IMG/VR virus record: IMGVR_UViG_3300008012_000102
Location: 1 to 30,667 of that record
From: a virus
Strand: one strand, 5' to 3'
DNA length: 30,667 bases
Of this stretch, positions 1 through 24,355 are shown in pieces. Under the pieces are notes generated by a model, which saw only the letters and a list, made by a program, of their open reading frames with translations, searched no databases and was not told the origin of the DNA. The stretch's first letter is position 1. Each line of letters begins with the position of its first letter. Position numbers and translations under genes: made by a program.

Positions 1-2034
1 AGTGCTACAAGAAGAAAAGAAATAAGTAATGAAATATATTCTATTCTTCGCAGTGCAATTAATAATGATACAAAAACATTTGATCCTTCTGTAATTCAGA
101 ACATGACTTTGCCGGAACATAAAAAGCAAGCCCTTATTCTTTTAGGTTCTCAAATGAATGAAATGTCTGATACAATGCACAGGGATCAGAATGAGTACGT
201 AAAACGTGAAGGTAAAGGGAAAGAACTTGGCTATATTGATAACTATCTTTTAAGATTTAAATCTCTTGATAAGGTAGCTGTTAAAAAGAATCGTGCAGGT
301 TTTGAAGCAGCCTTACAACAAGAGGCTGGTCTTACTGTAACTCAAGCTAAAGACCTAACTGATCAGATTTTAGATAACCCTGAAATGAATGATCTTAGTT
401 TACTTGACGATGATTTTTCTGTAACTAAAGGTGGTATTGTCCCTACGGCACACAGAGAAAGAACTCTTGGTTTGTCTGAAAAAGATGCCTTTAATGAGTT
501 TATGGAGCAAGACATCTTTGCTAACATGTCTACTGCTGCTAAGTCTGCTGCACGTTTTGTAACACATCGTAAGTACATTGGTAAGAACGGTGAAATCCTA
601 GCAGCACAATTGCAACAGATGGAAAATGAAGGTGTTCCTAGAGAAAAAGTAAATGAAATAGCTATGGGACTTAAGGATTTTCTAGATGCTGAGTCAGGAA
701 ACTATAAACGCCCAACAAGTAAAGATGGCAAGTTAGCAATTGGAATCCAAAAGAACCTTATGTTTGTTACAACAATAGCAACCCTTGGTCTTGCTACAGT
801 AGCTTCTATTGTAGAACTTGCGTTAGCAGGTCGTGCTCTTACGGCAGAACAAATATATGGTCGTAAAGGGGCTACATCTGGTGACACGAGCCTAGCGTCT
901 TTTGGTAAGGAACTAGCAAAGGTTATTTCAGATGCTGTTAGGTTTGCAGGAAACACTGCTGTTCTTAAAGATCCAGGGGTGACCAGCGAGTCACGTGGTC
1001 AAGAACTAATACGCAGTCTTGGTTATTATGAATGGGACGTTGGTGCTGCCACAGTTACTGGTGTTACAGAAATGAACCCAGTGCATGAAAAGTACTATAA
1101 GTTGTTCTTTAAAATGACAGGTCTTACAGGCTGGACAAACATGACCCGCGCTATTCGTGGGTCTATTGCGGCTGATTATATGTTTGATCACACAAAAACT
1201 ATATCTGAAGCTAGAGAAATTGGTGCACCTAAAACTAATGAAGTTCAAGAAGCAGAAGAGGCTTTGAGAAACATCGGTGTAAACGTTGATGATGCTGTAG
1301 AGGTTTATCGTGCAGATCAAAGGGCTGGCCCCAATGAGCTTTTGTCTCCAGAGTTAGAGGCAAAGCGTGAAACCAATATGAGAACTGGTGCGTTTAACTT
1401 TATTAATGATGCTGTTGCATTGCCGACTGTAGCTAATAGACCAATGATCTACCAAGACCCAAGGTTTGCCTTGTTTACACAGTTCCAAGGATTCATTGCT
1501 ACATTTACAGCTAACCACATTCCTAAACTATGGGGTGAGTATGTTAAGCGTGGTACTCCTTCAATGAAGTACAATGCTTTTGCAGTTATGTGCACAATGA
1601 TTATGCTAGGCTTTGCATCTCAATATCTTAAAGACTTAATTAAGTTTGGAGACAGGGATGAAGATGAGCTAAAGACACTTGGTAATCCATACCTTGATAC
1701 AGGTGAGTATGTCCAACGTGGTATACGTGCTTCTGGATTGATGGGTGTTGGAGAACGTGTCTTTGATCAGTTCTTTCCTTTGTATGAACAAAGGTCTGAC
1801 AACGCATTAGAGTGGGCTTGGAATACAGTAAGTGGTGAAGCACCTGCTGCAGGAACAGTCAAACGTGTTGCAAAGACATTAACTAATCTCGGCACTGGTG
1901 ATGTTAGCGGCGCTGCTCAACAAGCAAGTAAGCTGGTTCCGTTTATCGGCATCGTTGGTGGTGCTGAAAGACTTTCAAACTTATACGATTGGGATTATAA
2001 AGGGGAAGAGAATGGCAAAACGTCAAATAATTAA
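1..2034 (+). CDS. Internal virion (ejection) protein, 3' part only
   Basis: The reading frame is open from the first base with no stop, so the true start lies outside the window; about 677 residues are visible, ending in TAA at 2032-2034. Near the middle (coordinates about 750-830) is a long hydrophobic stretch rich in T, A, L, V and I. A second one lies near 1570-1640 and follows a Phe-rich segment (residues such as FTQFQGFIATFTANHIPK). Membrane-active segments in a large late protein just before another large virion protein are typical of podovirus internal core or ejection proteins that help form the DNA channel (family knowledge). No transglycosylase motif is visible in this part; one could lie upstream. 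The next gene starts inside its last 23 bases. The virion role is inferred from position and composition, since no specific catalytic motif was found. Confidence 0.6.
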   Translation, partial: SATRRKEISNEIYSILRSAINNDTKTFDPSVIQNMTLPEHKKQALILLGSQMNEMSDTMHRDQNEYVKREGKGKELGYIDNYLLRFKSLDKVAVKKNRAGFEAALQQEAGLTVTQAKDLTDQILDNPEMNDLSLLDDDFSVTKGGIVPTAHRERTLGLSEKDAFNEFMEQDIFANMSTAAKSAARFVTHRKYIGKNGEILAAQLQQMENEGVPREKVNEIAMGLKDFLDAESGNYKRPTSKDGKLAIGIQKNLMFVTTIATLGLATVASIVELALAGRALTAEQIYGRKGATSGDTSLASFGKELAKVISDAVRFAGNTAVLKDPGVTSESRGQELIRSLGYYEWDVGAATVTGVTEMNPVHEKYYKLFFKMTGLTGWTNMTRAIRGSIAADYMFDHTKTISEAREIGAPKTNEVQEAEEALRNIGVNVDDAVEVYRADQRAGPNELLSPELEAKRETNMRTGAFNFINDAVALPTVANRPMIYQDPRFALFTQFQGFIATFTANHIPKLWGEYVKRGTPSMKYNAFAVMCTMIMLGFASQYLKDLIKFGDRDEDELKTLGNPYLDTGEYVQRGIRASGLMGVGERVFDQFFPLYEQRSDNALEWAWNTVSGEAPAAGTVKRVAKTLTNLGTGDVSGAAQQASKLVPFIGIVGGAERLSNLYDWDYKGEENGKTSNN

Positions 2035-5000
2035 CAGGACTCCTAGTGCTGTAGAGAAACTACAAGAAACTATGGTAACTGCAGCCCCTGAAGTAGATCC
2101 TAATATGGTACAGAAAGAAGGGGAGGCTCCGGTCTCTCCTACTTCTGGAAGTATTTTTGATAGGATTGCTGCACAACCTGTGGCTGAGGCTACACAAGAC
2201 AACGTAGAACAACAAGCAGAGCAAGTAGGTGAACAAGTACAAGAGGCTGTAGCAGAAGGTTCTCCTGTAGCTCCTGAGCTTGCTGCTATTGCAACTGCTG
2301 AGTTAGAGTCCAACCCTAAACGCCTTAATCAAAAACAACTAGAACGGGCTGAAGCAAAAAAGAATATTGTTAAGCCACTTAATGAACGCACTGAAGAAGA
2401 TTCAGGTCAGTGGTTCTTTAATGCTGTTATAGCAGAAGATGCTGCTTCAGATGTAACATCTGGGCCTATGTCAGACGGTGGCCTTGTGGCTCGTGCTAGG
2501 AATTTGTCTAATGGTGTTTATGGTGGTACAGCTTCTCAAGTTCAAGCTGAAATTGAACAAAACGGTAAACCTCCAAATGGGCTGTTTGGTATTGCTGGAT
2601 TAACAGAAGCAGCGACAAACAATGTTGCTCTTAATGTTTTAGAACGTCTTAATGCTGTAGATAGAAATGCTGGTAAACCAACAAGAGATTTCCTTCAAAC
2701 AATGTCTGTTGTTGCTGAAGATACTATTTCACAACTTTCATTTAGTGAGCCAACATCTCTTGATATAAACCCTGGAGAAACTGCTATCAATGATGATGGT
2801 GAAGTTCAAAACGTAACAGAAGAAGAGATAGCCCAATCAACACCCTTTTCAAAAGCTAAAGCCAATCGTGATTTAGGAACACGAATAAGCAGAGAGTTCC
2901 AAAGGTTGCGTAATAAAGCAGAGGGTAGACCAACAGATGAATACCAAGACATAAGTGCAGAAGAAGCCATTGCTCTTGGGGACATGGCAAAAGAGTTATA
3001 CTGGGCAGCAAATAAAACTGTTGATGGTAAGAACTTTCTTGTAAGACAAAAAGCAAATGACGGTCAAGTGTATTTCACTCTGACAAAACACGGTGCCGAT
3101 ATGCTAAAGCAAGGGACAGCTAGACGTAAGCGTATGTTCCCTGGAAAACAAGTAAGAACCCAAAAGAACCCAGGTGTAAAACTTACAGGTGAAGCAGAAA
3201 AGGTTACTCGTAAAGTGTCTTCTAGGGCAGGTCGTCTTACAGGAACTCAAGAGCTTAATCAAGCAATGGCTAATCTAAATAAAGTAGCCAACGTTGTTGA
3301 TCCTCGTAGGCTTAAGATTCTATATCTTACGGCACTTCCTGTGTTACTTGGACAGGCACCCCCTGATACTCTTTATGCATCTCTAAATCATGTTGGTCAA
3401 GATAAACTAAATAAGTTTCTGGCTAAGGCTGCTGCTAAAACAGGAAGCCCAACAGAACAAGAGGCTGCAAACGCAACACAAGAATATAATAATTTAATAA
3501 ATGATTTGGCTCAAGACTTGCGCGGTATTGCCTTAGAGCGTAAGGGGGCTAATTACCTTACATATTATGTTCAAGCATTTAATACTCGTATTGCTCCGCA
3601 ACAGTCTACCCTTGACCCTACAACGTCTAAGACTGCTAGGTTTGTTACTCGTAATGCTAAGCCTTCGTTGGTAGATTCAAAGACAGGAACAGGAAGACGT
3701 ATTGAACGTAACCTTCGACAGATGTACGCTATGCATCTTGTAAAAGGGGCGGGGCCTAAACTTCCATCAGAAAGAGAAAGCATGTTAGAGATTGCTACAC
3801 CACAACTAGTTAAGTGGGGTATATCTTTACGGGCTGCTGTTGATGGTGTTTCTGATTCTAAGATTGAAGAAATATCTCAAGCTATTGAAGATGGGGTTTC
3901 AGTTAATGATCCAAATTTTCCACAGATTCCACAGCTACCTTCTGATTTAGATCCAGAGTTGTTAGAAACAATTAAGAAACAAGGAGAAGATGGACAAGCA
4001 TATATTGATGGTCTTATTGACTTTGCAAATTATTATGAAGTAAAGACTCGTGCTGCTTCGGATAAATTAGCAGGTAGGTCAGACGGTAACTATCAGTTTC
4101 CTTCTTTCTTTAATGCGTATATGGATGGTAAAACCAATGGTCTAGCATCTAATGGTATGCAAATGGGATCTATGTCTGTTGCTCAAAGAACAGGTGTGCT
4201 AAGAAGTCAGAATACTTCTACCATTGATAATAATGAAGACATACGTGACGAGTTAGCAAATCTTTTGTTAGCTAATCTAGATGATGGATTTGATGGGCAT
4301 ACAGGTGAAGTTGGTGATTACTTGCATAACATTGCAACTGAAGTGTTTAGTATTCGTGCATTAAATAAAGCCACTACTATGACGTTTGGTTATGGAAAAG
4401 AGTTGAATTCTTTTAAACGTGACATTCGTGAATACTTAGATCTTATGGAACAAGAAAAAGCAGCAGAAGGATCTAACTATAATGAGGTAGCATTAGCTGT
4501 TGAAGCCCTTACATCTGATACTAAGGATGGAAGAGATGCCTTGGTTGAAATACTTCATGCTAAGTATGTACCATCCCTTGTTCAGGTTCTTGACAAGAGG
4601 GCCTTGCAGTCCCGTAATGTTATGCGGGGAGCAGCTATGCTTCATGCTCTTTCTAATGAGTTGTTTACTATTGAATCTCCTACAGGGACTTCTCTTAATC
4701 TTGGTGGCTCTGCTACTACAGGATACATTGAGGGAGATGCTTACAAGGTTTGGTCTGATGGTAAATATAGCTTAAGAAAGGTAGGACGTTTTGGAGATGA
4801 ACTAACTGCAGCTGCTCCAAGGCTTATGGATGATGTAAGTATCCCTGGAGAGAGGGCATATGGTGGATCTGTACCAGCCCCTGTTCAATCCCTAGATGCT
4901 GCTACGGTTATTCGTACAGCTAGTGGGAAATCTTGGTCTAGGCTTGAAGCAGCCTCTGGTGGTGCTCCATATCTTCATACTATTTATGATGCCTTTAAGG

Positions 5001-5566
5001 TTGATGCTATGGGATATGATGTTGTACTTGAAGAGGTCAATCAAAACTGGTTAGATTTAAACATGCAGTGGTCATATCTTGAAAAGACTTCTGATGCATT
5101 AAACAATCTTAGATCTAAGTTTAATGAAAGATACAGTGGACGAGACCCTAATGATGCTCTTACAGAAAACGAATGGAGTATGGCTGGGTATCTTTTAGAA
5201 CAAACAAAAGAAGATGGAAAATCAACAAGCTCAAACCTTATGAATAAACTTTCTAAGGTGCTTGATCTCCCCGTGGTTGATAAGGATAATAAACTTATTG
5301 AAAAACACCCAGAGGTAGAGGAAGCTACAAAGCGAATTGAAGACGCTATGATTGCTGTTGGTTATAACCCTAAAAGCCCACCCGCACAACCTACTGTGCG
5401 ACACATAAGGGCTTTTGTTCAGGCGTTTAGTAAAGAACTAAACATGCAAGGCAGACTTAATAAGATGATTGCAGAGACTAACAGAGATAAGGCTGCTCTC
5501 AAATCTGAAATAGAAAAGCAGATTGCAGACGGTAACTTTGGTGTGTTTCAATATTACGATCACTAG
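2012..5566 (+). CDS. Putative virion-packaged single-subunit RNA polymerase
   Basis: 1184 residues. The start is ATG 2012, preceded by AGGGGAAGAG and overlapping the previous gene by 23 bases; the frame is open further upstream but that part lacks a ribosome site. The first 120 residues are rich in E, Q and A. T7-superfamily polymerase motifs appear in order. A stretch around residues 522-545 (AFNTRIAPQQSTLDPTTSK) resembles the DxxGR region. Motif A is DGKTNG with Asp705. Motif B is R782xxxK786 with MT and Y794-G795; the R-K-Y spacing of 4 and 8 equals T7 R627-K631-Y639. Motif C is IYDAF with Asp993, having Tyr where T7 has His. A-to-B spacing is 81 (T7 94) and B-to-C 207 (T7 181). Its place at the end of the late virion block, separate from the T7-like polymerase on the other strand, suggests injection with the DNA, as for N4 virion polymerase (family knowledge). 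Polymerase assignment is strong; packaging is inference. Confidence 0.78.
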   Translation: MAKRQIINRTPSAVEKLQETMVTAAPEVDPNMVQKEGEAPVSPTSGSIFDRIAAQPVAEATQDNVEQQAEQVGEQVQEAVAEGSPVAPELAAIATAELESNPKRLNQKQLERAEAKKNIVKPLNERTEEDSGQWFFNAVIAEDAASDVTSGPMSDGGLVARARNLSNGVYGGTASQVQAEIEQNGKPPNGLFGIAGLTEAATNNVALNVLERLNAVDRNAGKPTRDFLQTMSVVAEDTISQLSFSEPTSLDINPGETAINDDGEVQNVTEEEIAQSTPFSKAKANRDLGTRISREFQRLRNKAEGRPTDEYQDISAEEAIALGDMAKELYWAANKTVDGKNFLVRQKANDGQVYFTLTKHGADMLKQGTARRKRMFPGKQVRTQKNPGVKLTGEAEKVTRKVSSRAGRLTGTQELNQAMANLNKVANVVDPRRLKILYLTALPVLLGQAPPDTLYASLNHVGQDKLNKFLAKAAAKTGSPTEQEAANATQEYNNLINDLAQDLRGIALERKGANYLTYYVQAFNTRIAPQQSTLDPTTSKTARFVTRNAKPSLVDSKTGTGRRIERNLRQMYAMHLVKGAGPKLPSERESMLEIATPQLVKWGISLRAAVDGVSDSKIEEISQAIEDGVSVNDPNFPQIPQLPSDLDPELLETIKKQGEDGQAYIDGLIDFANYYEVKTRAASDKLAGRSDGNYQFPSFFNAYMDGKTNGLASNGMQMGSMSVAQRTGVLRSQNTSTIDNNEDIRDELANLLLANLDDGFDGHTGEVGDYLHNIATEVFSIRALNKATTMTFGYGKELNSFKRDIREYLDLMEQEKAAEGSNYNEVALAVEALTSDTKDGRDALVEILHAKYVPSLVQVLDKRALQSRNVMRGAAMLHALSNELFTIESPTGTSLNLGGSATTGYIEGDAYKVWSDGKYSLRKVGRFGDELTAAAPRLMDDVSIPGERAYGGSVPAPVQSLDAATVIRTASGKSWSRLEAASGGAPYLHTIYDAFKVDAMGYDVVLEEVNQNWLDLNMQWSYLEKTSDALNNLRSKFNERYSGRDPNDALTENEWSMAGYLLEQTKEDGKSTSSNLMNKLSKVLDLPVVDKDNKLIEKHPEVEEATKRIEDAMIAVGYNPKSPPAQPTVRHIRAFVQAFSKELNMQGRLNKMIAETNRDKAALKSEIEKQIADGNFGVFQYYDH

Positions 5567-5568
5567 AA

Positions 5569-5624
5569 TAAAAAAAAAATACCCCTACTAGAATCCAATT
5601 AAGGAAACTAGTAGGGGCTTTTTT
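5569..5624. terminator. Bidirectional intrinsic terminator
   Basis: A perfect 10-bp stem pairs CCCCTACTAG (5582-5591) with CTAGTAGGGG (5608-5617). The loop contains a further TCC/GGA pairing. A T-run follows on the plus strand (5619-5624) and an A-run precedes it (5569-5579), which reads as a T-run for minus-strand transcripts. It lies exactly between the convergent late plus operon and early minus operon, so it should stop both. Confidence 0.9.
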
Positions 5625-5881: not shown

Positions 5882-8200
5882 TTAGGCAAAGAAGTAATCA
5901 GACTCATAGATCTGTGTTACGTCTAGGTCGCCTAGCTCTGGTTGCTCTACGTCAAGGTTAGTAGCATCAGTAATGATGTTTTGTTGTATCAAGTCGTAGT
6001 AATTTTCTTTATCATACATTTCGATAAAGCTTTGTTTAGTCCTCGCTAATAGTGACTCGACATCACATGCATGAGTACTAAAGGAATCATGCACTGCTCC
6101 GAAATCACCATTCCATTCCTCAATAACCAAGGCCATATGGCTTGCGTCTTGGCTGTGGATATAGTTAGGGCTAACCCCGCACATAAATCCGCGAATATCG
6201 GGGGTCTTCGTAGGTACTCTTGCCACATGGTTTACTCCCTTGTGTCCTTTAGATTCAGACTTGTATCCACTTATAGTACCTCTACACTTTCTCGTAGCTG
6301 TAGTAAAGTTTTGATAGACTACATTAAACCCTGATGGGGTTACCCATTTAAGTTCACTTCTACCATTACCGTGTACAAGCTTGCTTTGGTATGATCTAAG
6401 AGTGACTGTAAGTTCATTGAGAAGTTCTATATCCTCATCACTTTTATCTTTCTTAGTGTACAAAGCCTTCTGATCTTTTACTAGTTGTTTGTAGTCAGGA
6501 CCAGCGGGTTTACCATACTTGTCATACTTTGCGTACTCACCTATCTCATACTGGGCTAGCTTTTGTAGGTACGCCATAGTGTGGAGGGGTCCAGGGCAGA
6601 CCATGTTGATTGCCTTGATTAACAGCTTGGCTAGTTTATCACAGTCATCTTGAGTAATCCCGTACTCCACATGAAAGTCTTCGGCCTTACAATCAAAGAA
6701 CATATTTTCAGCGATCTTCTTTGCACCAGCTGAGTATGCTCTAGTCATACTGCCACGTTTAGAGATACCCTTTCGGATATGTTTCATTGGCATTTGATCT
6801 AGTATACCCTTGAGCCTTTCATCAGTTGTTAACTGGTAAAGCTGCTTAGCAGTTTGCACATAGAAGTCATGCTGTATATCTACCGGAATCAGGCCTACAA
6901 GCCTCCCTGTCTGGCTGTCTTTAGAAATAGCACCTAGATGCTGCCAACCATTGTTAGACCCGTCTACGGGCACTGGGAGGTGGCTTATGTGGATTCTGTT
7001 ATCCTTGACTGCTCGTTGGTAATCAAACCATTCTAAGCAACAGGAAAGAAATGACACAGCTTTTTCAGCTATGTTTGCCACAATAGACTTTCTACCCATC
7101 TCAATAATAACTTCCATGTTATCATTAGTCCAGCGCACTCTGTCTTCAAGAGTAAACTTATCAACACTGATAGACTCTAGGTTTTCATCCTTTAGGTATT
7201 TCACATAGTCAGCTTCACACCACTCTGGGATTTCATCAATGTTGTAGCTTTGGTTAAAGCTGTTTGCAGTATGAACCGCTAGCCAGAAGAGTCCGTCCTC
7301 TGTCATAGGCTTACCCCTAGCAAAGGTCATCATTCCACGGGCTAGATCAGAGCCTTGGTAGTTTAAGAAAGACTCTGAGTAGTATAGTCGTCCTCTGTAA
7401 TCTGCTTGCATATACTGATAGAATACGTCTTGATCGTATAGCAGCTTAGCCTTAGTCGTAATAAACCCCCACTCTACTAGCTTACTTCTTCGTTTCATTT
7501 CTTTAGCATCGTTATTCTCTACAGGTGTTGATGATATGAATGAATCCTTGTTAGCTATTAGAGCATCGTATACACGTTGGTTAATTCTCCAGCCTGTACG
7601 TTGAAGTTTATCTACAGAAGTAATCCAAGGTGTTCCTAACATAGGTGTAAACTGTGCGTTGTCCTCTTCAGTCCACTCTTTTATCACAGGTTCTCCGTCT
7701 GCTTGAATGATCTTGGAGATCTTTTCTGGTCTTGATAGAACCGTATGGTTTAGTGCTATCCTTAGCATGGCCTCAGGGATATCTGCTAAGTCAATCCACT
7801 TTGCTGTAGCCGACACAATATAGCTAGTATCCCTTGTTTTAGGATAATAGATATCAATGTAACCACAGTTATAGAACGCTTCTATGAAGAGATCACCTAG
7901 TCTAACATGCATATTCCAGGGTAACCCAGGGGGTTCCCTTTGAATTACACGTGCAATACGTTGACCTATTGCTGTAGATACAGCTGTCAACTGGGCAGTC
8001 CCTGCAGGACTATCTGAGGTATCGTAGGTGAATCTCATTTGTATTGTTTGGAAAGCCACATTAACTAGTCGCGGCATGTCCTCTTTATATTCTTTATACA
8101 ATCTCAGAAGTACACCACCTGAGTTTGCCTTAGGGTTATTTGGATTAACCCTTGAGACTTTATCAACTAGGTACTCTGAGATTTGATCGAATGGATTCAT
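5882..8200 (-). CDS. T7-like DNA-dependent RNA polymerase
   Basis: 772 residues (T7 has 883), single-subunit type. Visible motifs: DYRGRLYY near residue 267, equivalent to T7 DWRGRVY; motif A PVDGSNNGWQHLG with Asp413; motif B RKGISKRGSMTRAYSAG around 476-492; motif C VHDSF with Asp704. The protein ends in YFFA, recalling the FAFA C-terminal foot of T7 polymerase that lies near the active site. It should transcribe phage genes from phage-specific promoters in the host cytoplasm. Start ATG 8200 follows AGAGGATTGT. It lies 15 bases after thyX and is the second-last gene of a long minus operon. That is unusual, because T7 itself places this gene first. Identity is certain at family level. Confidence 0.97.
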   Translation of the reverse strand: MNPFDQISEYLVDKVSRVNPNNPKANSGGVLLRLYKEYKEDMPRLVNVAFQTIQMRFTYDTSDSPAGTAQLTAVSTAIGQRIARVIQREPPGLPWNMHVRLGDLFIEAFYNCGYIDIYYPKTRDTSYIVSATAKWIDLADIPEAMLRIALNHTVLSRPEKISKIIQADGEPVIKEWTEEDNAQFTPMLGTPWITSVDKLQRTGWRINQRVYDALIANKDSFISSTPVENNDAKEMKRRSKLVEWGFITTKAKLLYDQDVFYQYMQADYRGRLYYSESFLNYQGSDLARGMMTFARGKPMTEDGLFWLAVHTANSFNQSYNIDEIPEWCEADYVKYLKDENLESISVDKFTLEDRVRWTNDNMEVIIEMGRKSIVANIAEKAVSFLSCCLEWFDYQRAVKDNRIHISHLPVPVDGSNNGWQHLGAISKDSQTGRLVGLIPVDIQHDFYVQTAKQLYQLTTDERLKGILDQMPMKHIRKGISKRGSMTRAYSAGAKKIAENMFFDCKAEDFHVEYGITQDDCDKLAKLLIKAINMVCPGPLHTMAYLQKLAQYEIGEYAKYDKYGKPAGPDYKQLVKDQKALYTKKDKSDEDIELLNELTVTLRSYQSKLVHGNGRSELKWVTPSGFNVVYQNFTTATRKCRGTISGYKSESKGHKGVNHVARVPTKTPDIRGFMCGVSPNYIHSQDASHMALVIEEWNGDFGAVHDSFSTHACDVESLLARTKQSFIEMYDKENYYDLIQQNIITDATNLDVEQPELGDLDVTQIYESDYFFA

Positions 8201-8215
8201 ACAATCCTCTTTCTG

Positions 8216-8920
8216 TTATGTTAAACACCCCCAGCTTATAGGGGCGATGCCTTCTATACACTCACCAAACTGATTGGCTAGTTCTTGGATTTCTACTTGG
8301 GCATGACTGTCTGTTCGTTGTTTATAAATACGAGCAGCAGCAGCCAGTGATCCTGTTTCTACCCACTCTGTCATCATTGATTGTGGTAGAATCATACGTG
8401 CTTGTTCAGGGCAAATACCTTGAGCTAACATCTTTTCGTAGCATGTGATAGCATTTTCGTGTATCTCTTTTAAGTATTTATTAGGGAAGTATTGAGACTC
8501 AGCATCACCACTAGACCCTTGTTTAGCACCGTCAGTAGGCCTTGCTCTCCATGACTTTGGTTCATAAAACTCTGGTGTTGTGTCTACATATCTTCGTGAT
8601 ACTTCATTACGAGTAATACCTACTATGTGTTTAAACCATTGCCTTGCTACAAAGATAGGTGCCTTTATACGTACTTGATATTGTACTTGACTGAAGGGTG
8701 TCCAATGCCCATGCTCTGCTAAATATTTAATTAGTTTTTTATCTTTAGTATTTAAACGCTTAACAGTGTGAGGTTCGCAAGGAGGACTGTCCTCATCATA
8801 ACCTACTTCAATTGTTTCATATTCAGATCTTTTATTAAAGGAGACTCTAGCAGCATTTACTACTGCTAGGTCACTCCCCATACTATCTATTAGTGTTATT
8901 TCAAACTGTAAAGTAGTCAT
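8216..8920 (-). CDS. thyX: Flavin-dependent thymidylate synthase ThyX
   Basis: 234 residues. It makes dTMP from dUMP using FAD, NADPH and methylene-tetrahydrofolate, supplying thymidine for phage DNA. The signature lies at residues 93-111: RQWFKHIVGITRNEVSRRY. The NExSxRY half (N105, E106, S108, R110, Y111) is intact. The usual RHR half is replaced by KHI/HIV, a variant I associate with phage ThyX enzymes. Start ATG 8920 was chosen because AGGAGG precedes it by five bases; an in-frame TTG one codon earlier is too close to that site. The start overlaps the end of the primase-helicase gene by 20 bases, so translation is likely coupled. It sits between helicase and RNA polymerase in the early operon. 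Confidence 0.95.
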   Translation of the reverse strand: MTTLQFEITLIDSMGSDLAVVNAARVSFNKRSEYETIEVGYDEDSPPCEPHTVKRLNTKDKKLIKYLAEHGHWTPFSQVQYQVRIKAPIFVARQWFKHIVGITRNEVSRRYVDTTPEFYEPKSWRARPTDGAKQGSSGDAESQYFPNKYLKEIHENAITCYEKMLAQGICPEQARMILPQSMMTEWVETGSLAAAARIYKQRTDSHAQVEIQELANQFGECIEGIAPISWGCLT

Positions 8921-10538
8921 CAAAACCTCCTGCGGCTACTAGTCTTGTTGTCTTGTTGTTGTACGCAGCACTTCCGGCAGGTCCTGTAAGCCCTGTGAAT
9001 CTAGACTTGAGTACTTTGAACTTGATTGTGTTTCGTTCTGACTCTGACTCTGCGACAAGGTTTCGTGAAAAGGCAATGATGTCGAACGAGATCTGCTTGA
9101 TCGAGCCACTGCCTTTGATATCATCGATAGATGCGATGTTCCCTTCTTCAAAACTCTTACCCCCTTGGGCTTTACGTAGGTGGCTGATAAGACCCAACCA
9201 CACATTATGTTTCTTTACAACTTTAAGTAAGTCAGACATTACTTTATCAATCGCTTCGTTACCAGATAGTCCCTCAGACCCTTCCGATACCGCGATAGTA
9301 ATGTGATCAAGAACGAGGTACTTGCAACCCATAAGGGCCATGTACTCAATCTTTTCGATAAGAGATGAGTCCCCAACGGAGCCTTGATGATCCAAGAGAA
9401 CCAGTCGCTCGTCACCAAACACAGCTTCATATCCTCTACGGAGTTCATCCTCATCAGTCGATGGAGTATCCATGATGTTACGCCTAAGCTGCATGGAGAT
9501 AAACTTTTCGGCTGTATCTCCAACACTTTCTTCCAGACTAATGAGTCCAACCTTATCACTTGTCTTAGCAAGAAGGTCAAGAACAATCTCTTTAATGACA
9601 GTAGACTTACCACTGCCAGTGCCAGAGGTAAACAAAGTAATCTCACCATATCGTATTCCTTTTAGTTTTTCATTAAGACCTGAAAGACAATCTGGATACG
9701 GAACAGACTCTACATCTTGACGTTCTTTGAATTGATCCCACACAGCCTCACCAGTTACAATACCTGCAGGAGACCAAGTGTGCGCTCTCCATATACAATT
9801 GTCTAAGATCTTAGGTCCATGTTTCATTAGTGTGTCACTGGCATCTTTTTCTGGTAACTTTACAATCTTTACTTTACCAGCATCAAACATCTTTGCAGCT
9901 TTTTCAAGTGCAGCTTGACCAGCATCATCTTGGTCAAAACACAGAACAATTTCTTGGAACTGGTTTACCCACTCCCTTTGCTCTAGTAATGTTCTTAGCC
10001 CAGTTGCTGATGGTATCGACACAACAGAACCCCAGATCTTTCCAGAGTTATCTATCATAGACTGAGCCACTGCCAGTGTATCTAGTTCTCCCTCAGTGAT
10101 AATGATTTTCTTTCTACCAATCCCTGGGGAAGACTGACCAAACAGGTCTACATCTTTAAAGTTACCATGAACGTGGAAACTTTTAGGTAGTTTTCGTTCT
10201 TTGTAAGCAACCAATTTACCGTCTTTTGTGTACGGATAATAATGAGATTCTGGCATTCCAGTTTCACTCACGCTCATCTTCACACCAAAGTGATCAACTA
10301 CTTCTTTAGTGATACCACGAGAAGTAATAGAATAGCTACGATAAGAAGGTATATCGGAGAATTTAGTAAGCTCCACAAAGGAGGTAGGTGTATAGGCATC
10401 CATTTCAACTTTCACTTTCTTTGATTTACCACAGCTGAAGCAGTGACCTACTCCATCGCTGTACGATACAAACGCATCTGAACTACCACACCCAGGGAAT
10501 GGGCATGGTCCTTTTACATATCTTCTTTCATCATCCAT
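8901..10538 (-). CDS. T7 gp4-like primase-helicase
   Basis: 545 residues, close to T7 gp4 (566). A Cys4 zinc ribbon (C12, C17, C33, C36) starts the primase part. It is followed by a TOPRIM domain with ITEGELD (around 147-153) and FDQDD (201-205). The helicase domain has Walker A SGTGSGKS (305-312), the ISLEE acidic residue near 336, Walker B YLVLDH (407-412) and LISHLRK (450-456). The tail ends DDYFTV, acidic with an aromatic residue as in T7 gp4, which uses its tail to contact DNA polymerase. It should unwind DNA and lay primers at the fork. The start ATG directly follows the TAA of a small ORF inside rusA, and the ribosome site is weak, so coupling is plausible. Confidence 0.97.
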   Translation of the reverse strand: MDDERRYVKGPCPFPGCGSSDAFVSYSDGVGHCFSCGKSKKVKVEMDAYTPTSFVELTKFSDIPSYRSYSITSRGITKEVVDHFGVKMSVSETGMPESHYYPYTKDGKLVAYKERKLPKSFHVHGNFKDVDLFGQSSPGIGRKKIIITEGELDTLAVAQSMIDNSGKIWGSVVSIPSATGLRTLLEQREWVNQFQEIVLCFDQDDAGQAALEKAAKMFDAGKVKIVKLPEKDASDTLMKHGPKILDNCIWRAHTWSPAGIVTGEAVWDQFKERQDVESVPYPDCLSGLNEKLKGIRYGEITLFTSGTGSGKSTVIKEIVLDLLAKTSDKVGLISLEESVGDTAEKFISMQLRRNIMDTPSTDEDELRRGYEAVFGDERLVLLDHQGSVGDSSLIEKIEYMALMGCKYLVLDHITIAVSEGSEGLSGNEAIDKVMSDLLKVVKKHNVWLGLISHLRKAQGGKSFEEGNIASIDDIKGSGSIKQISFDIIAFSRNLVAESESERNTIKFKVLKSRFTGLTGPAGSAAYNNKTTRLVAAGGFDDYFTV

Positions 10539-10730
10539 TTAGTTCCATCTTTCTTCTTTAGCTTGACGATTTAGTTTCCTCTTGTAACTCGCTTCTCGTT
10601 TCTTGTTGAGTCTCTTCTGCTTGATCACTTTCATACTCTCGTACTCTGATGTCAAGGAATTCTCCTCCTCGTTTAACAATTCGCTTTTCAAGTTTGATGT
10701 TGTAAACTTTATTGTCATTGAATTCTTCAT
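10539..10730 (-). CDS. Possible small basic protein overlapping rusA out of frame
   Basis: 63 residues, mostly inside the 3' half of the RusA-like gene in another frame. The C-terminal half is very rich in K, R and E (for example KRLNKKREASYKRKLNRQ). Its TAA abuts the ATG of the primase-helicase, which otherwise has a weak ribosome site, so it could act as a coupling ORF. AAGGAG lies three bases before the first ATG, which is short. The RusA tail over the same DNA is low-complexity (E, Q, S, T), as expected if this frame were also selected. It may equally be a chance ORF. Confidence 0.3.
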   Translation of the reverse strand: MKNSMTIKFTTSNLKSELLNEEENSLTSEYESMKVIKQKRLNKKREASYKRKLNRQAKEERWN

Positions 10731-10983
10731 ACACTCCTTGGTATGTGTCTAATATTGGTTTAATTACATTATCCAGATCTGCTCCTCTATTTGAGAGACC
10801 TGCTGTTATATCAAAGGTAACCTGACCAACCCCAAAGGGCCAGTCAGTTCCTATTAGTTCATCCCGAATGTTGTTCTGATACTCCAGATAATCCGCTGAC
10901 TTGAACGTTGTCTTCCCCCTTCGGTTCCACATCTTGTTCGCACTCAGAGGTTTTATTGAGAAGTAATGACTCATCTCCTCCAT
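10558..10983 (-). CDS. RusA-like Holliday junction endonuclease
   Basis: 141 residues. RusA family enzymes cut four-way DNA junctions during recombination and before packaging. The N-terminus has the family pattern SIKPLSANKMW. The metal-binding region is RGADLDNVIKPILDTYQG (around residues 70-87), followed by VYEEFNDNKVYNI where RusA usually has a DD pair. The C-terminal 25 residues are a polar low-complexity tail. The start, ATG 10983, follows AGGAG by ten bases. A second ATG four codons in has a purine-rich site that is too close. The first 125 bases overlap the exonuclease gene in another frame, an unusually long overlap. In T7 the same functional slot is filled by the unrelated gp3 endonuclease I. 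Confidence 0.85.
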   Translation of the reverse strand: MEEMSHYFSIKPLSANKMWNRRGKTTFKSADYLEYQNNIRDELIGTDWPFGVGQVTFDITAGLSNRGADLDNVIKPILDTYQGVYEEFNDNKVYNIKLEKRIVKRGGEFLDIRVREYESDQAEETQQETRSELQEETKSSS

Positions 10984-11668
10984 TCTTTTGTATCTCCTCT
11001 AGTTCATCCCATGTGGTTAGCATAGTAAGTAGTTTACGACTAAGCCAAGGATCACCTGCATTATGTTCTTTCCATGCAGCGACAACCTTTTCCCAGCGTT
11101 GACCCATTGGTACTCCTGCTAGGATCTTTTCAGCTTTCTTTGGACCGATGCCTTTAATGCCTGGAATGTTATCACTAGTATCACCAGTCAAACATTGCAG
11201 CATCAAGTTCATGTTTGCCTTGTCATCATCTACAAACTCATGGGTTTTCTTAGTGTAGTTATAGTGATGACCAGGTATCTGTTTAAGATCTTTATCAATA
11301 CCACAAATCAGGAAGTCTAGTTCCATTTCACGAGCTTCATAAGCCCATATACATACTAGATCATCTGCTTCCATCCCGTCAGCTTCTACACCACCCCACT
11401 TTTCTTTCATATAGTTGTGACCATAGTTAAGGGACTTCTTTACTTCGTCCGTTAAGGCGGGTCTGGAGGCCTTGTAGGGGGTGTAAAGGTCTTTCCGGTA
11501 GTTCCCCCTACCTTTAAGTGCTACACGGCACTCATGAGGCTCTGAGAAGGCGTAAGCCATGCATTCATTTACGGTGAAGTCAATCACCTTTCGTATTTCT
11601 ACTTCATCAGAGTTGCTATAAGCAGCCCTGAAGTAGATAGAGTCGGCATCAATTAGTGCTAGTGCCAT
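10859..11668 (-). CDS. T7 gp6-like 5'-3' exonuclease (FEN family)
   Basis: 269 residues. It should remove RNA primers and degrade host DNA. The N-terminal metal-binding segment is LIDADSIYFRAAY. A helical-arch region with KGRGNYRKDLYTPYKASR follows. Then come GMEADDLVC and CGIDKDLKQIPG with their acidic ligands, and the helix-hairpin-helix GDTSDNIPGIKGIGPKKAEK near residues 161-180. Start ATG 11668 follows AAAGGAAAAGATA. The last 40 or so residues are polar and low in complexity; they are encoded over the start of the RusA gene in another frame. It lies between the DNA polymerase and the junction resolvase in the replication operon. Confidence 0.95.
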   Translation of the reverse strand: MALALIDADSIYFRAAYSNSDEVEIRKVIDFTVNECMAYAFSEPHECRVALKGRGNYRKDLYTPYKASRPALTDEVKKSLNYGHNYMKEKWGGVEADGMEADDLVCIWAYEAREMELDFLICGIDKDLKQIPGHHYNYTKKTHEFVDDDKANMNLMLQCLTGDTSDNIPGIKGIGPKKAEKILAGVPMGQRWEKVVAAWKEHNAGDPWLSRKLLTMLTTWDELEEIQKNGGDESLLLNKTSECEQDVEPKGEDNVQVSGLSGVSEQHSG

Positions 11669-11680
11669 TATCTTTTCCTT

Positions 11681-11956
11681 TCATCTGTAGATTACTTCAA
11701 CTCCCCAATCCTTTACTTTATTAGTTAAGGGGTAGGGGTTGAGGGGGTCTCTTTCGTATTCAACTGCTGCGAGTAGGTGGAGAATGATATATCCGTTTGC
11801 AGTATAGTGGTAACGCAATACATCAAACCATTCTCTCGGTTCAATACCATCTGGTTTTGGGTGGAAGGATACGGTGTACCCTGGATATTCAATTGATGGT
11901 TCATAGGGTACTTCCTTTATATTAGTGTACGTCTGCATAACTGCTGCCAATGACAT
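11681..11956 (-). CDS. Hypothetical protein between DNA polymerase and exonuclease
   Basis: 91 residues from ATG 11956, chosen because GGAAGG lies eight bases upstream; an in-frame GTG three codons earlier lies inside that site. It overlaps the end of the DNA polymerase gene by 35 bases. The sequence has a Tyr/Pro-rich first half (EPSIEYPGYTVSFHPKPDG) and a helical segment NGYIILHLLAAVEYERD. There is no clear membrane segment, cysteine motif or catalytic signature. Position suggests a replication accessory role, but the family is not recognised. Confidence 0.75.
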   Translation of the reverse strand: MSLAAVMQTYTNIKEVPYEPSIEYPGYTVSFHPKPDGIEPREWFDVLRYHYTANGYIILHLLAAVEYERDPLNPYPLTNKVKDWGVEVIYR

Positions 11957-13748
11957 AATCTCCACCTTCCATACAAGTTACACCAAACATCTTTGGTCCT
12001 TCTTTAAATGACTCTTGTAAGATTTCACCAACACGATCAGCATCATCTGGATGTGCTACATAGGCGATCTCGTCATGGTAGAACAGCCGTGGCTCTGCAC
12101 GTAGTCCTTCTTCATCAATCTTATTCATAGCATAAGAAAGTGCAGACTTACATGTAATACCCTCTGCTGTTTGCAGAAGATAGTTTAGGGCCTGGTATTC
12201 ACCAGAGACAAACACAGGACGACCATCAAGCCCAGGGAACCAACCTTCACCTGTAGCGTACTGAGTACTGCGCCATACATCGCCCAGTCTGTTCTTTAGC
12301 TCTGCCAATCCTTTAATGCCTTTGGCAAAGTCTTCACGAGACTTCTTACCAGCATTAGCGTTAGGCTTACCAGTTAGAATAGAACCAAGCTTAGCATCAC
12401 CAGCGCCAAACAAGTATGCGTATAGGTAGTTTTTAGCAATGGGGCGAGAGCAACCAAGAGCATCAGCGTTTCGTTGATGTTGATCACCATAGATAACTTC
12501 ATTAGTAAACTCATCATTGCCTACGTAATGACACAGACCCCTTAGTTGGTTACCAGAACTATCAGCACCTACAACTTTCCAATTGTCATCAGGTATAAAC
12601 AGTTCCCTTAGTTCTTTACCCCACGGGGCATTCACCCCTGGAAGGTTTACAATAACTTCATGACGACATCGGAATGTTTGAGTACCGATAGTCCACATGT
12701 TACCGTGGATGCGACCATTGGAAAGAACCTCAAGCCAGCCCTTAATAACAGAGCTTCTATTACGAAGGGTATAGTACTCGCTGATCATTTTACCAAGATC
12801 CCCTAGTTTCTCTAGAGATGTATCAGTAATCTTTGGACCAACAGTAACCCACTCTCGGCCTACTTTCTTACGATTATATTCATCGGGTTTCCATCCAATT
12901 GTAAGCAACCACTCTTTAACAAGCTCCATAGAACCAAGAGTGATCTGCTCAACAGTGAAACGTTGGAAGGGTTCCCCTGCTGCGTGAACGTGTATGTCGG
13001 TTGTTTTAATTTCTTTATTGTAAAAGTCAGACAACAAACGTGCAGTTACCGCTGTGTAGTCTCCATTCTTTTTGAACTTAGGAAACTTTTCTACTTTATC
13101 TATGTATACTTTATGCGTACCCAATTGTGGGTGAAGAGTGTTTTCAATCTCAAGCATACGAACATTCATATCTTTTAGGTTCTTCTTTGCTTTTACAACA
13201 TCAAAGTTCCAACCACGAGTCTTTACACGGGCATTAAACTTGGCTGTATCATGCTCAATCAGAAGACCCTCTTTAATAGCTGGTCTTTTAGCAGCAATCT
13301 TTTTGTATTCTACCATTAGGTGGTTGAACACATCTGCATTTAGCTTTACGTCTTGTACACAGTACCTAAGCATTTCTTTAGAGTAGTTATCCCACTCATC
13401 AAATTCAATTTTAGAATTGTTGAGGTGCTCACCCCAACCCTTAAGGCCGTGCTTGTGGGGTCTTTTGTATTGCAATACCTGAGACATAATCCAGGTATCG
13501 TATATTTTCTTTTCGTTTAGTTTCAACCCATACAGTTTTTCCATAACTAAATTATCAAACCCGATAATGTTATGACCGATCAAAACCTCTGCATTGTTTA
13601 GCATAACGCAACCATCGTCCATTGATGGGATTGAGTTATCATAATCACTGAATTTGTAAGTTGATCCAGTATCTAAGTTATGTGCTACAAGGCACCATAC
13701 TTTTGTTGCATCAAAACCATCGGTTTCAATATCATATACTAGTTTCAT
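11922..13748 (-). CDS. T7-like family A DNA polymerase with 3'-5' exonuclease
   Basis: 608 residues (T7 gp5 has 704). Proofreading motifs: DIETDG (D6, E8), GHNIIGFD (H59, D65) and Y129xxxD133. Polymerase motifs: A ADSSGNQLR with Asp396, Gln401 and Arg403; B RPIAKNYLYAYLFGAG with R435, K439 and Y443; C FYHDEI with D559 and E560. Tyr443 is at the T7 Tyr526 position linked to dideoxynucleotide acceptance. Gln401 replaces the usual Glu of the steric gate. The shorter length suggests a reduced thumb insertion, which in T7 binds thioredoxin; this is inference. The start MKLVYDIETDG is typical of the family. It overlaps the HNH gene by 17 bases. Confidence 0.97.
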   Translation of the reverse strand: MKLVYDIETDGFDATKVWCLVAHNLDTGSTYKFSDYDNSIPSMDDGCVMLNNAEVLIGHNIIGFDNLVMEKLYGLKLNEKKIYDTWIMSQVLQYKRPHKHGLKGWGEHLNNSKIEFDEWDNYSKEMLRYCVQDVKLNADVFNHLMVEYKKIAAKRPAIKEGLLIEHDTAKFNARVKTRGWNFDVVKAKKNLKDMNVRMLEIENTLHPQLGTHKVYIDKVEKFPKFKKNGDYTAVTARLLSDFYNKEIKTTDIHVHAAGEPFQRFTVEQITLGSMELVKEWLLTIGWKPDEYNRKKVGREWVTVGPKITDTSLEKLGDLGKMISEYYTLRNRSSVIKGWLEVLSNGRIHGNMWTIGTQTFRCRHEVIVNLPGVNAPWGKELRELFIPDDNWKVVGADSSGNQLRGLCHYVGNDEFTNEVIYGDQHQRNADALGCSRPIAKNYLYAYLFGAGDAKLGSILTGKPNANAGKKSREDFAKGIKGLAELKNRLGDVWRSTQYATGEGWFPGLDGRPVFVSGEYQALNYLLQTAEGITCKSALSYAMNKIDEEGLRAEPRLFYHDEIAYVAHPDDADRVGEILQESFKEGPKMFGVTCMEGGDYVIGSSYADVH

Positions 13749-15053: not shown

Positions 15054-15069
15054 TATATACCCCTTATAG
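15054..15069 (-). promoter_or_regulatory. Promoter-like 16-bp repeat, copy A
   Basis: CTATAAGGGGTATATA on the minus strand, identical in five places in the window. TATA followed by a G-run resembles the start region of T7-type promoters (TATAGGG). Read this way it would start transcripts into mazG and the replication operon. TATA-AGGGG-TATA can also fold as a small hairpin. The direction of use is not proven; the opposite strand would point to the small terminase. Confidence 0.5.
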
Positions 15070-15116: not shown

Positions 15117-15132
15117 CTATAAGGGGTATATA
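15117..15132 (+). promoter_or_regulatory. Promoter-like 16-bp repeat, copy B
   Basis: CTATAAGGGGTATATA on the plus strand, with CAATT following as in copy C. It lies 19 bases before the ATG of the small-terminase-like gene. With the G-run as start, the leader would be 28 bases with GGAG placed correctly. It diverges from copy A, giving a two-way switch point at about 15.1 kb. Confidence 0.55.
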
Positions 15133-15555: not shown

Positions 15556-15608
15556 TGCGTTTTGTCGGTTACCCAAAAAAGATGCATATGCGTTTTGTCG
15601 GTTACTGA
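15555..15608 (+). repeat. Two direct copies of ATGCGTTTTGTCGGTTAC (micro-ORF)
   Basis: Identical 18-bp copies at 15555-15572 and 15588-15605 are 33 bases apart, so both stay in one frame. Together they encode a 17-residue peptide, MRFVGYPKKMHMRFVGY, whose ATG overlaps the TGA of the previous gene. The first 16 bases occur a third time at 20106-20121, before a minus-strand gene. Whether it is a peptide, a protein-binding site or a recombination site cannot be told from sequence. Confidence 0.55.
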
Positions 15609-20105: not shown

Positions 20106-20121
20106 ATGCGTTTTGTCGGTT
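20106..20121 (+). repeat. Third copy of ATGCGTTTTGTCGGTT
   Basis: Identical over 16 bases to the two copies at 15555 and 15588, 4.5 kb away. Here it cannot encode the same peptide context, since TTGAC follows. It sits 10 bases upstream of a minus-strand start codon, so a regulatory or recombination role is at least as likely as coding. Confidence 0.6.
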
Positions 20122-22289: not shown

Positions 22290-22305
22290 CTATAAGGGGT
22301 ATATA
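22290..22305 (+). promoter_or_regulatory. Promoter-like 16-bp repeat, copy C
   Basis: CTATAAGGGGTATATA followed by CAATT, identical over 21 bases to copy B. In the G-run direction it points toward the large terminase, 298 bases downstream of the G-run. The opposite strand points into the minus small-gene block. Confidence 0.5.
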
Positions 22306-22384: not shown

Positions 22385-22400
22385 TATATACCCCTTATAG
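22385..22400 (-). promoter_or_regulatory. Promoter-like 16-bp repeat, copy D
   Basis: Same 16 bases on the minus strand. With copy C it forms a pair 79 bases apart facing each other in the G-run direction, so their transcripts would cross. Read the other way the pair diverges, toward the terminase and the small-gene block. This is why orientation is left open. Confidence 0.5.
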
Positions 22401-24339: not shown

Positions 24340-24355
24340 TATATACCCCTTATAG
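24340..24355 (-). promoter_or_regulatory. Promoter-like 16-bp repeat, copy E
   Basis: Same 16 bases, G-run on the minus strand, in the 205-bp gap after the large terminase. In that direction it would run antisense into the end of terL; in the other it would serve the structural operon from 24452. It is the copy that argues most against a simple G-run start model. Confidence 0.5.

Follow-up and report, generated by a model that had tools for sequence, protein, structure and literature searches.

Does a phage outside the N4 group carry a small RNA polymerase (RNAP) in its virion? To our knowledge, the giant N4-type enzyme is the only case of a one-chain virion RNAP (vRNAP), and ejection and autoinhibition are the roles ascribed to the large domains that flank its core. 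The locus in question lies in the window (i.e., the whole stretch of DNA that was analysed), which at 30,667 bases is an entire virus record and nevertheless a fragment of a larger phage genome; a 97% relative, G001, of 58,751 bases with overlapping ends, corresponds to a complete genome of about 58.5 kb and carries the whole gene set. The initial annotation had proposed that a protein encoded at the left end of the window is a compact injected polymerase, distinct from those of N4-like phages, that works together with a one-chain late polymerase. The features on which this proposal depends are the following:

2012-5566, plus strand: compact N4-type single-subunit RNAP, proposed virion RNAP (P0001); 1184 aa, no cysteine, ATG at 2012 to stop at 5566
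4124-4141, plus strand: motif A, D705-G-K-T-N-G710 (DGxTNG, of N4 vRNAP type)
4355-4396, plus strand: motif B, R782...K786...MT..Y794-G795
4985-4993, plus strand: motif C, Y992-D993-A994

Relatives of the 1184-aa protein were sought in two scans of viral contigs, the second of which gave 47 distinct loci, including two ordinary T7-like RNAPs (L048 and L049) that were caught through motif B. An alignment of 40 relatives, with identity down to 24%, was employed for conservation, AlphaFold2 modelling and profile comparison. Complete members of the family measure about 1,110-1,370 aa, and their carriers are uncultured, mostly marine phages.

All residues named in the initial annotation (D705, R782, K786, M790-T791, Y794-G795 and D993) are found at their positions in the translation, and both catalytic aspartates, D705 and D993, are invariant across the 40 aligned relatives, as are G706, T708, G710, K786, M790, Y794 and G795; position 782 is Arg in 34 relatives, Lys in five and Ser in one. 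In profile alignments, D705 and D993 pair with D537 and D812 of T7 RNAP, and the T7 spacing of motif B is borne out, R782/K786/M790-T791/Y794-G795 pairing with R627/K631/M635-T636/Y639-G640. The corresponding residues in N4 mini-vRNAP are D559, R666, K670, Y678-G679 and D951, and D962 pairs with T7 D787 and N4 D929. Purifying selection is stronger on the core than on the N-terminus, with a dN/dS against the 97% relative of 0.12 for the gene and 0.10 for the portion C-terminal of residue ~480.

Single-sequence searches are nearly blind to this protein, so that profiles and structure are required: P0001 alone gave no significant match in Pfam, phage records or PDB sequences, and its sole PHROG match is the RNA polymerase family phrog_414 (E 0.002), which is also matched by 24 of the 40 relatives (best E 3e-7). 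The AlphaFold2 model obtained from the 40-relative alignment (pLDDT 78, pTM 0.75, with low confidence chiefly over the first ~110 residues and in a few brief segments elsewhere) matches T7 RNAP and N4 mini-vRNAP over residues ~130-1184, in agreement with the palm and fingers fold expected of such an enzyme. Foldseek matched the model to T7 RNAP (E 2e-15) and N4 mini-vRNAP (E 5e-12), as well as to mitochondrial RNAPs, and VIA gave a Z of 22.9 to the N4 mini-vRNAP P2 complex, with 754 residues aligned, and of up to 27 to T7. The longest alignments are those to the N4 vRNAP structures, with as many as 772 residues between model residue ~130 and the C-terminus, and the top Z is that to T7 RNAP; structure search by itself fails to separate the two as nearer kin. 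The residue match lies far beyond chance, and sequence and model together confirm the product of 2012-5566 as a real single-subunit RNAP, with predicted activity.

Profile comparison does separate the two. With hhalign, the 40-relative alignment scores 120.6 over 646 columns (E 2.5e-12) against ten catalytic domains of Schitoviridae vRNAPs, versus 81.5 (E 3.2e-8) against 61 T7-like RNAPs, while the Schitoviridae vRNAP and T7-like profiles score 86.5 with each other. The DGxTNG form of motif A is present in 37 of the 40 relatives and in none of the 61 T7-like RNAPs; that each of the ten profiled vRNAP domains has it is not an independent count, since DGxTN was required for profile entry, and one further vRNAP that was retrieved (RHEph16) is without DGxTN. 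With T7 RNAP and PF00940 the compact enzyme shares the fold, motifs A, B and C and an identical motif B spacing, but it differs from them in being a cysteine-free product of a late-operon gene, in bearing DGxTNG instead of DGSCSG, and in having no significant Pfam match; like N4 (PMC4496689), it lacks the Asp of the DxxGR motif of T7.

The placement outside the N4 group holds for the phage and not for the protein. The former does not look Schitoviridae-like: its second RNAP is a single T7-like chain of 772 aa rather than a two-subunit RNAPII, and N4-like structural genes were not found. Within the phage collection, the terminase (TerL) and T7-like RNAP are nearest to those of Roseobacter phage CRP-7, whereas the portal matches the SU10 portal family. 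The protein, in contrast, is nearest to the N4 virion polymerases, which argues against an independent invention.

The compactness is upheld. N4 gp50 comprises 3500 aa, of which residues 998-2103 constitute the mini-vRNAP, and N4 vRNAPs range from 2,842 to 3,820 aa (PMC10654107); the protein described here, at 1184 aa, consists of the core plus ~120 aa and is devoid of giant N- and C-terminal domains, including the lipid-binding N-terminal and autoinhibitory C-terminal domains of gp50 (PMC12633501). It also departs from the ExDGxxxG pattern given for N4 vRNAPs (PMC10654107), reading Y-M-D-G-K-T-N-G with no Glu two positions before D705. It shares with gp50 a single-subunit core, DGxTNG, the absence of cysteine, paired catalytic residues and a position as last late-operon gene by the ejection proteins, and can be described as a stripped-down putative N4-type vRNAP, similar in size to the catalytic domain that forms the mini-vRNAP of N4.

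The genomic surroundings of the gene provide a second line of evidence, and include the following features:

1-2034, plus strand: C-terminal portion of a large protein of virion/ejection type (match to phrog_6958, virion structural protein, E 6e-13)
5582-5617, no strand: bidirectional intrinsic terminator with stem CCCCTACTAG / CTAGTAGGGG, read directly from the sequence
5882-8200, minus strand: second, T7-like one-chain RNAP, 772 aa (PF00940 E 1.5e-55, phrog_414 E 1.8e-99)
8216-13748, minus strand: replication block sharing its strand with the T7-like RNAP, with ThyX, primase/helicase, exonuclease and DNA polymerase A

The position at the end of the late structural block, beside an ejection-type protein, and the presence of a separate, one-chain T7-like polymerase are both as initially described. 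The large upstream protein is about 1370 aa long in the 97% relative (L001/G001), and its gene runs 23 nt into that of the RNAP; in all 32 loci whose contig extends far enough upstream, the stop of a large ORF on the same strand falls at or near the RNAP start, with an overlap in some cases. In the window and seven near-complete relatives, within contig reach, the order is a lysozyme-type protein, a ~1300-aa protein and the compact RNAP, faced on the convergent side by the T7-like RNAP, primase/helicase, exonuclease and DNA polymerase. A convergent ORF of more than 600 aa, the T7-like RNAP, follows in 45 of 46 loci, and a PF00940 RNAP above the curated cut-off was found in 40 of 40 contigs searched. 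In G001, a phage lysozyme domain (E 1.5e-32) is encoded two genes upstream and the next protein matches virion structural families. This arrangement of ejection module and RNAP equals that of N4 gp52, gp51 and gp50, the latter being the largest ejection protein of N4 (PMC12633501). The terminator has a 10-bp stem without mismatches, preceded by an A-run at 5570-5579 and followed by a T-run at 5619-5624, and is predicted to end both convergent operons; a pattern scan restricted to loops of 3-8 did not list it.

The family is also strikingly poor in cysteine, with six in 45,638 residues and none in 34 of 40 members, versus 676 in 46,528 residues (1.45%), and at least seven per protein, in a set of T7-like RNAPs mostly from the same contigs. 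Cysteine is absent from N4 gp50, gp51 and gp52, from T7 gp15 and gp16, and from P22 gp7, gp16 and gp20, T7 gp14 having one; both upstream ejection-type proteins are nearly cysteine-free too. Cysteine scarcity independently marks proteins that travel through the tail, although scaffold and some other structural proteins share it. Synteny, cysteine depletion and N4 vRNAP kinship converge as indirect indications that the compact RNAP would be packaged.

The reading that we consider likely is that early transcription is begun by an N4-type vRNAP, compact and injected, while middle and late transcription falls to the one-chain T7-like RNAP. The 1184-aa protein would be an active DNA-dependent RNAP of the N4 virion type, with a catalytic core and a disordered N-terminus of ~120 residues. 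Produced late, from the last gene of the structural operon, it would be loaded into the capsid alongside the neighbouring ejection-type proteins and later be ejected into the next cell before the DNA or together with it, probably in an unfolded state. There it would begin to transcribe the incoming genome; the T7-like RNAP arising from this first transcription would then drive the middle and late genes. RNAP activity, packaging, injection, early role and the assignment of enzymes to promoters are all inferred here. As the conserved N- and C-terminal domains of N4 vRNAPs are missing, ejection would have to proceed without them.

The distribution of promoter-like repeats bears on this scheme:

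15054-15069, plus strand: phage-type promoter-like repeat TATATACCCCTTATAG, exact (five copies in the window, 0 expected)
15117-15132, minus strand: the repeat at the head of the leftward middle block that holds the T7-like RNAP
22290-22305, minus strand: the repeat at the head of the leftward early block
22385-22400, plus strand: the repeat before the terminase gene (late, rightward)
24340-24355, plus strand: the repeat before the next late genes

The early, middle and late blocks, so named from their gene content, are all headed by exact copies of this T7-type sequence, and relatives display diverged forms at similar places, such as CTAAGTTCCTTATAG in G016, G019 and G032. Sigma-70-like sites are not commoner than in shuffles, and N4-like hairpins with a 3-base loop number 4 in the early region versus 3.8 expected, in a scan of perfect stems of at least 6 bp. 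If the early block needs a phage-type promoter, a phage polymerase must enter with the DNA, an argument that is tempered by the fact that weak host promoters are hard to exclude. A tentative and rather doubtful extension is that host RNAP is needed at no stage, the injected polymerase reading the T7-type promoter class that heads all three blocks and handing over to a T7-like RNAP of overlapping specificity.

The location of the gene in the late operon could also be accommodated by a late polymerase that is not packaged and that serves some of the genes within the cell that made it (or primes replication), with host RNAP transcribing the early genes, as happens in T7. Two RNAPs are reported to coexist in the T7-like Vibrio phage Peru-2, as in the carriers described here; both are one-chain enzymes, but the second one of Peru-2 is described as T7-like, and its gene stands outside the ejection module, with the metabolism module on one side and the structural module on the other (PMC13320782). 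The near-absence of cysteine and the invariant place behind ejection-type proteins fit virion proteins instead, and a single strong phage-type promoter class stands out, so that no distinct late class is evident for the compact RNAP; we thus regard such a role as improbable. Less probable still is a polymerase-derived ejection protein that has lost RNA synthesis and serves as a third ejection protein like T7 gp16. At this position CRP-7-type phages do encode a protein of comparable size that has no cysteine and no clear motif A, but neither the two catalytic Asp nor the Lys and Tyr-Gly of motif B vary among the 40 relatives down to 24% identity, and purifying selection weighs more heavily on the core than on the N-terminus. 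That the resemblance is fortuitous, or that a DNA polymerase of family A has been mistaken for an RNAP, as the weak family matches of P0001 alone might evoke, is hardly credible in view of the RNAP-type MT..YG of motif B, of best structural matches listed that are all RNAPs (Z about 15-27), and of a genome that encodes its own DNA polymerase A.

Roseobacter phage CRP-7 (MK613349) is the nearest isolate (TerL 61%, T7-like RNAP 37%), and its gp33 (L058 17859-21566), cysteine-free and 1235 aa long, is syntenic with the compact RNAP, sharing genome layout and a place behind a homologous large protein (25% identity). In contrast to the compact RNAP, gp33 displays no significant polymerase similarity (profile comparison with 2% probability, E 0.024); a faint resemblance in motifs B and C can be observed. 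Since the similarity is too weak and the AlphaFold model poor (pLDDT 37), gp33 is either very diverged or a replacement, and this isolated phage may have a virion polymerase that diverged strongly. Among published candidates, ORF30 of Pseudoalteromonas phage vB_PunP_Y3 (L112 24147-34412), reported as a virion RNAP homologue, was rejected as a precedent because both DGxTNG and a match to the vRNAP profile are absent, the latter being a weak test, since the small profile also misses P0001 in a plain HMM search; ORF30 is annotated as a ParB-like domain protein. In the accessible part of its description, the 'vRNAP' of StenR_269 rests on size, absence of cysteine and helical prediction (PMC10747016).

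No earlier description of the compact RNAP was found in a search of an open-access library. A survey of N4-like viruses discarded vRNAP-HMM matches below 2,500 aa and required ExDGxxxG (PMC10654107); the compact family falls on the wrong side of both thresholds, and such families may thus have been overlooked. A natural vRNAP without flanking domains would reveal which parts are dispensable for ejection and early transcription, and would provide a small, probably expressible enzyme for tests; together with the T7-like RNAP, it is proposed to form a simple two-polymerase transcription programme in marine phages.

A few minor observations accompany these results. A scan of genome contigs gave a single match, a 10-kb contig (L107) in a Bacteroidetes MAG (UBA10340) that encodes an 89% identical polymerase; it is probably a mis-binned phage contig and not a clue to the host. 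The repeat GCGTTTTGTCGGTT occurs in three exact copies in the window (15557-15570, 15590-15603 and 20108-20121; 0.09 expected) and also in G001; it was dropped as a vRNAP promoter, its orientation and place being unfit, and may be an origin, a terminator or a regulatory site. Lastly, the early region of G027 holds a repeated GCCACGCAAGCGTGTC at 6869, 8382, 11751 and 19130 (plus strand), an element that contains a short inverted repeat and could be a terminator or a hairpin promoter.
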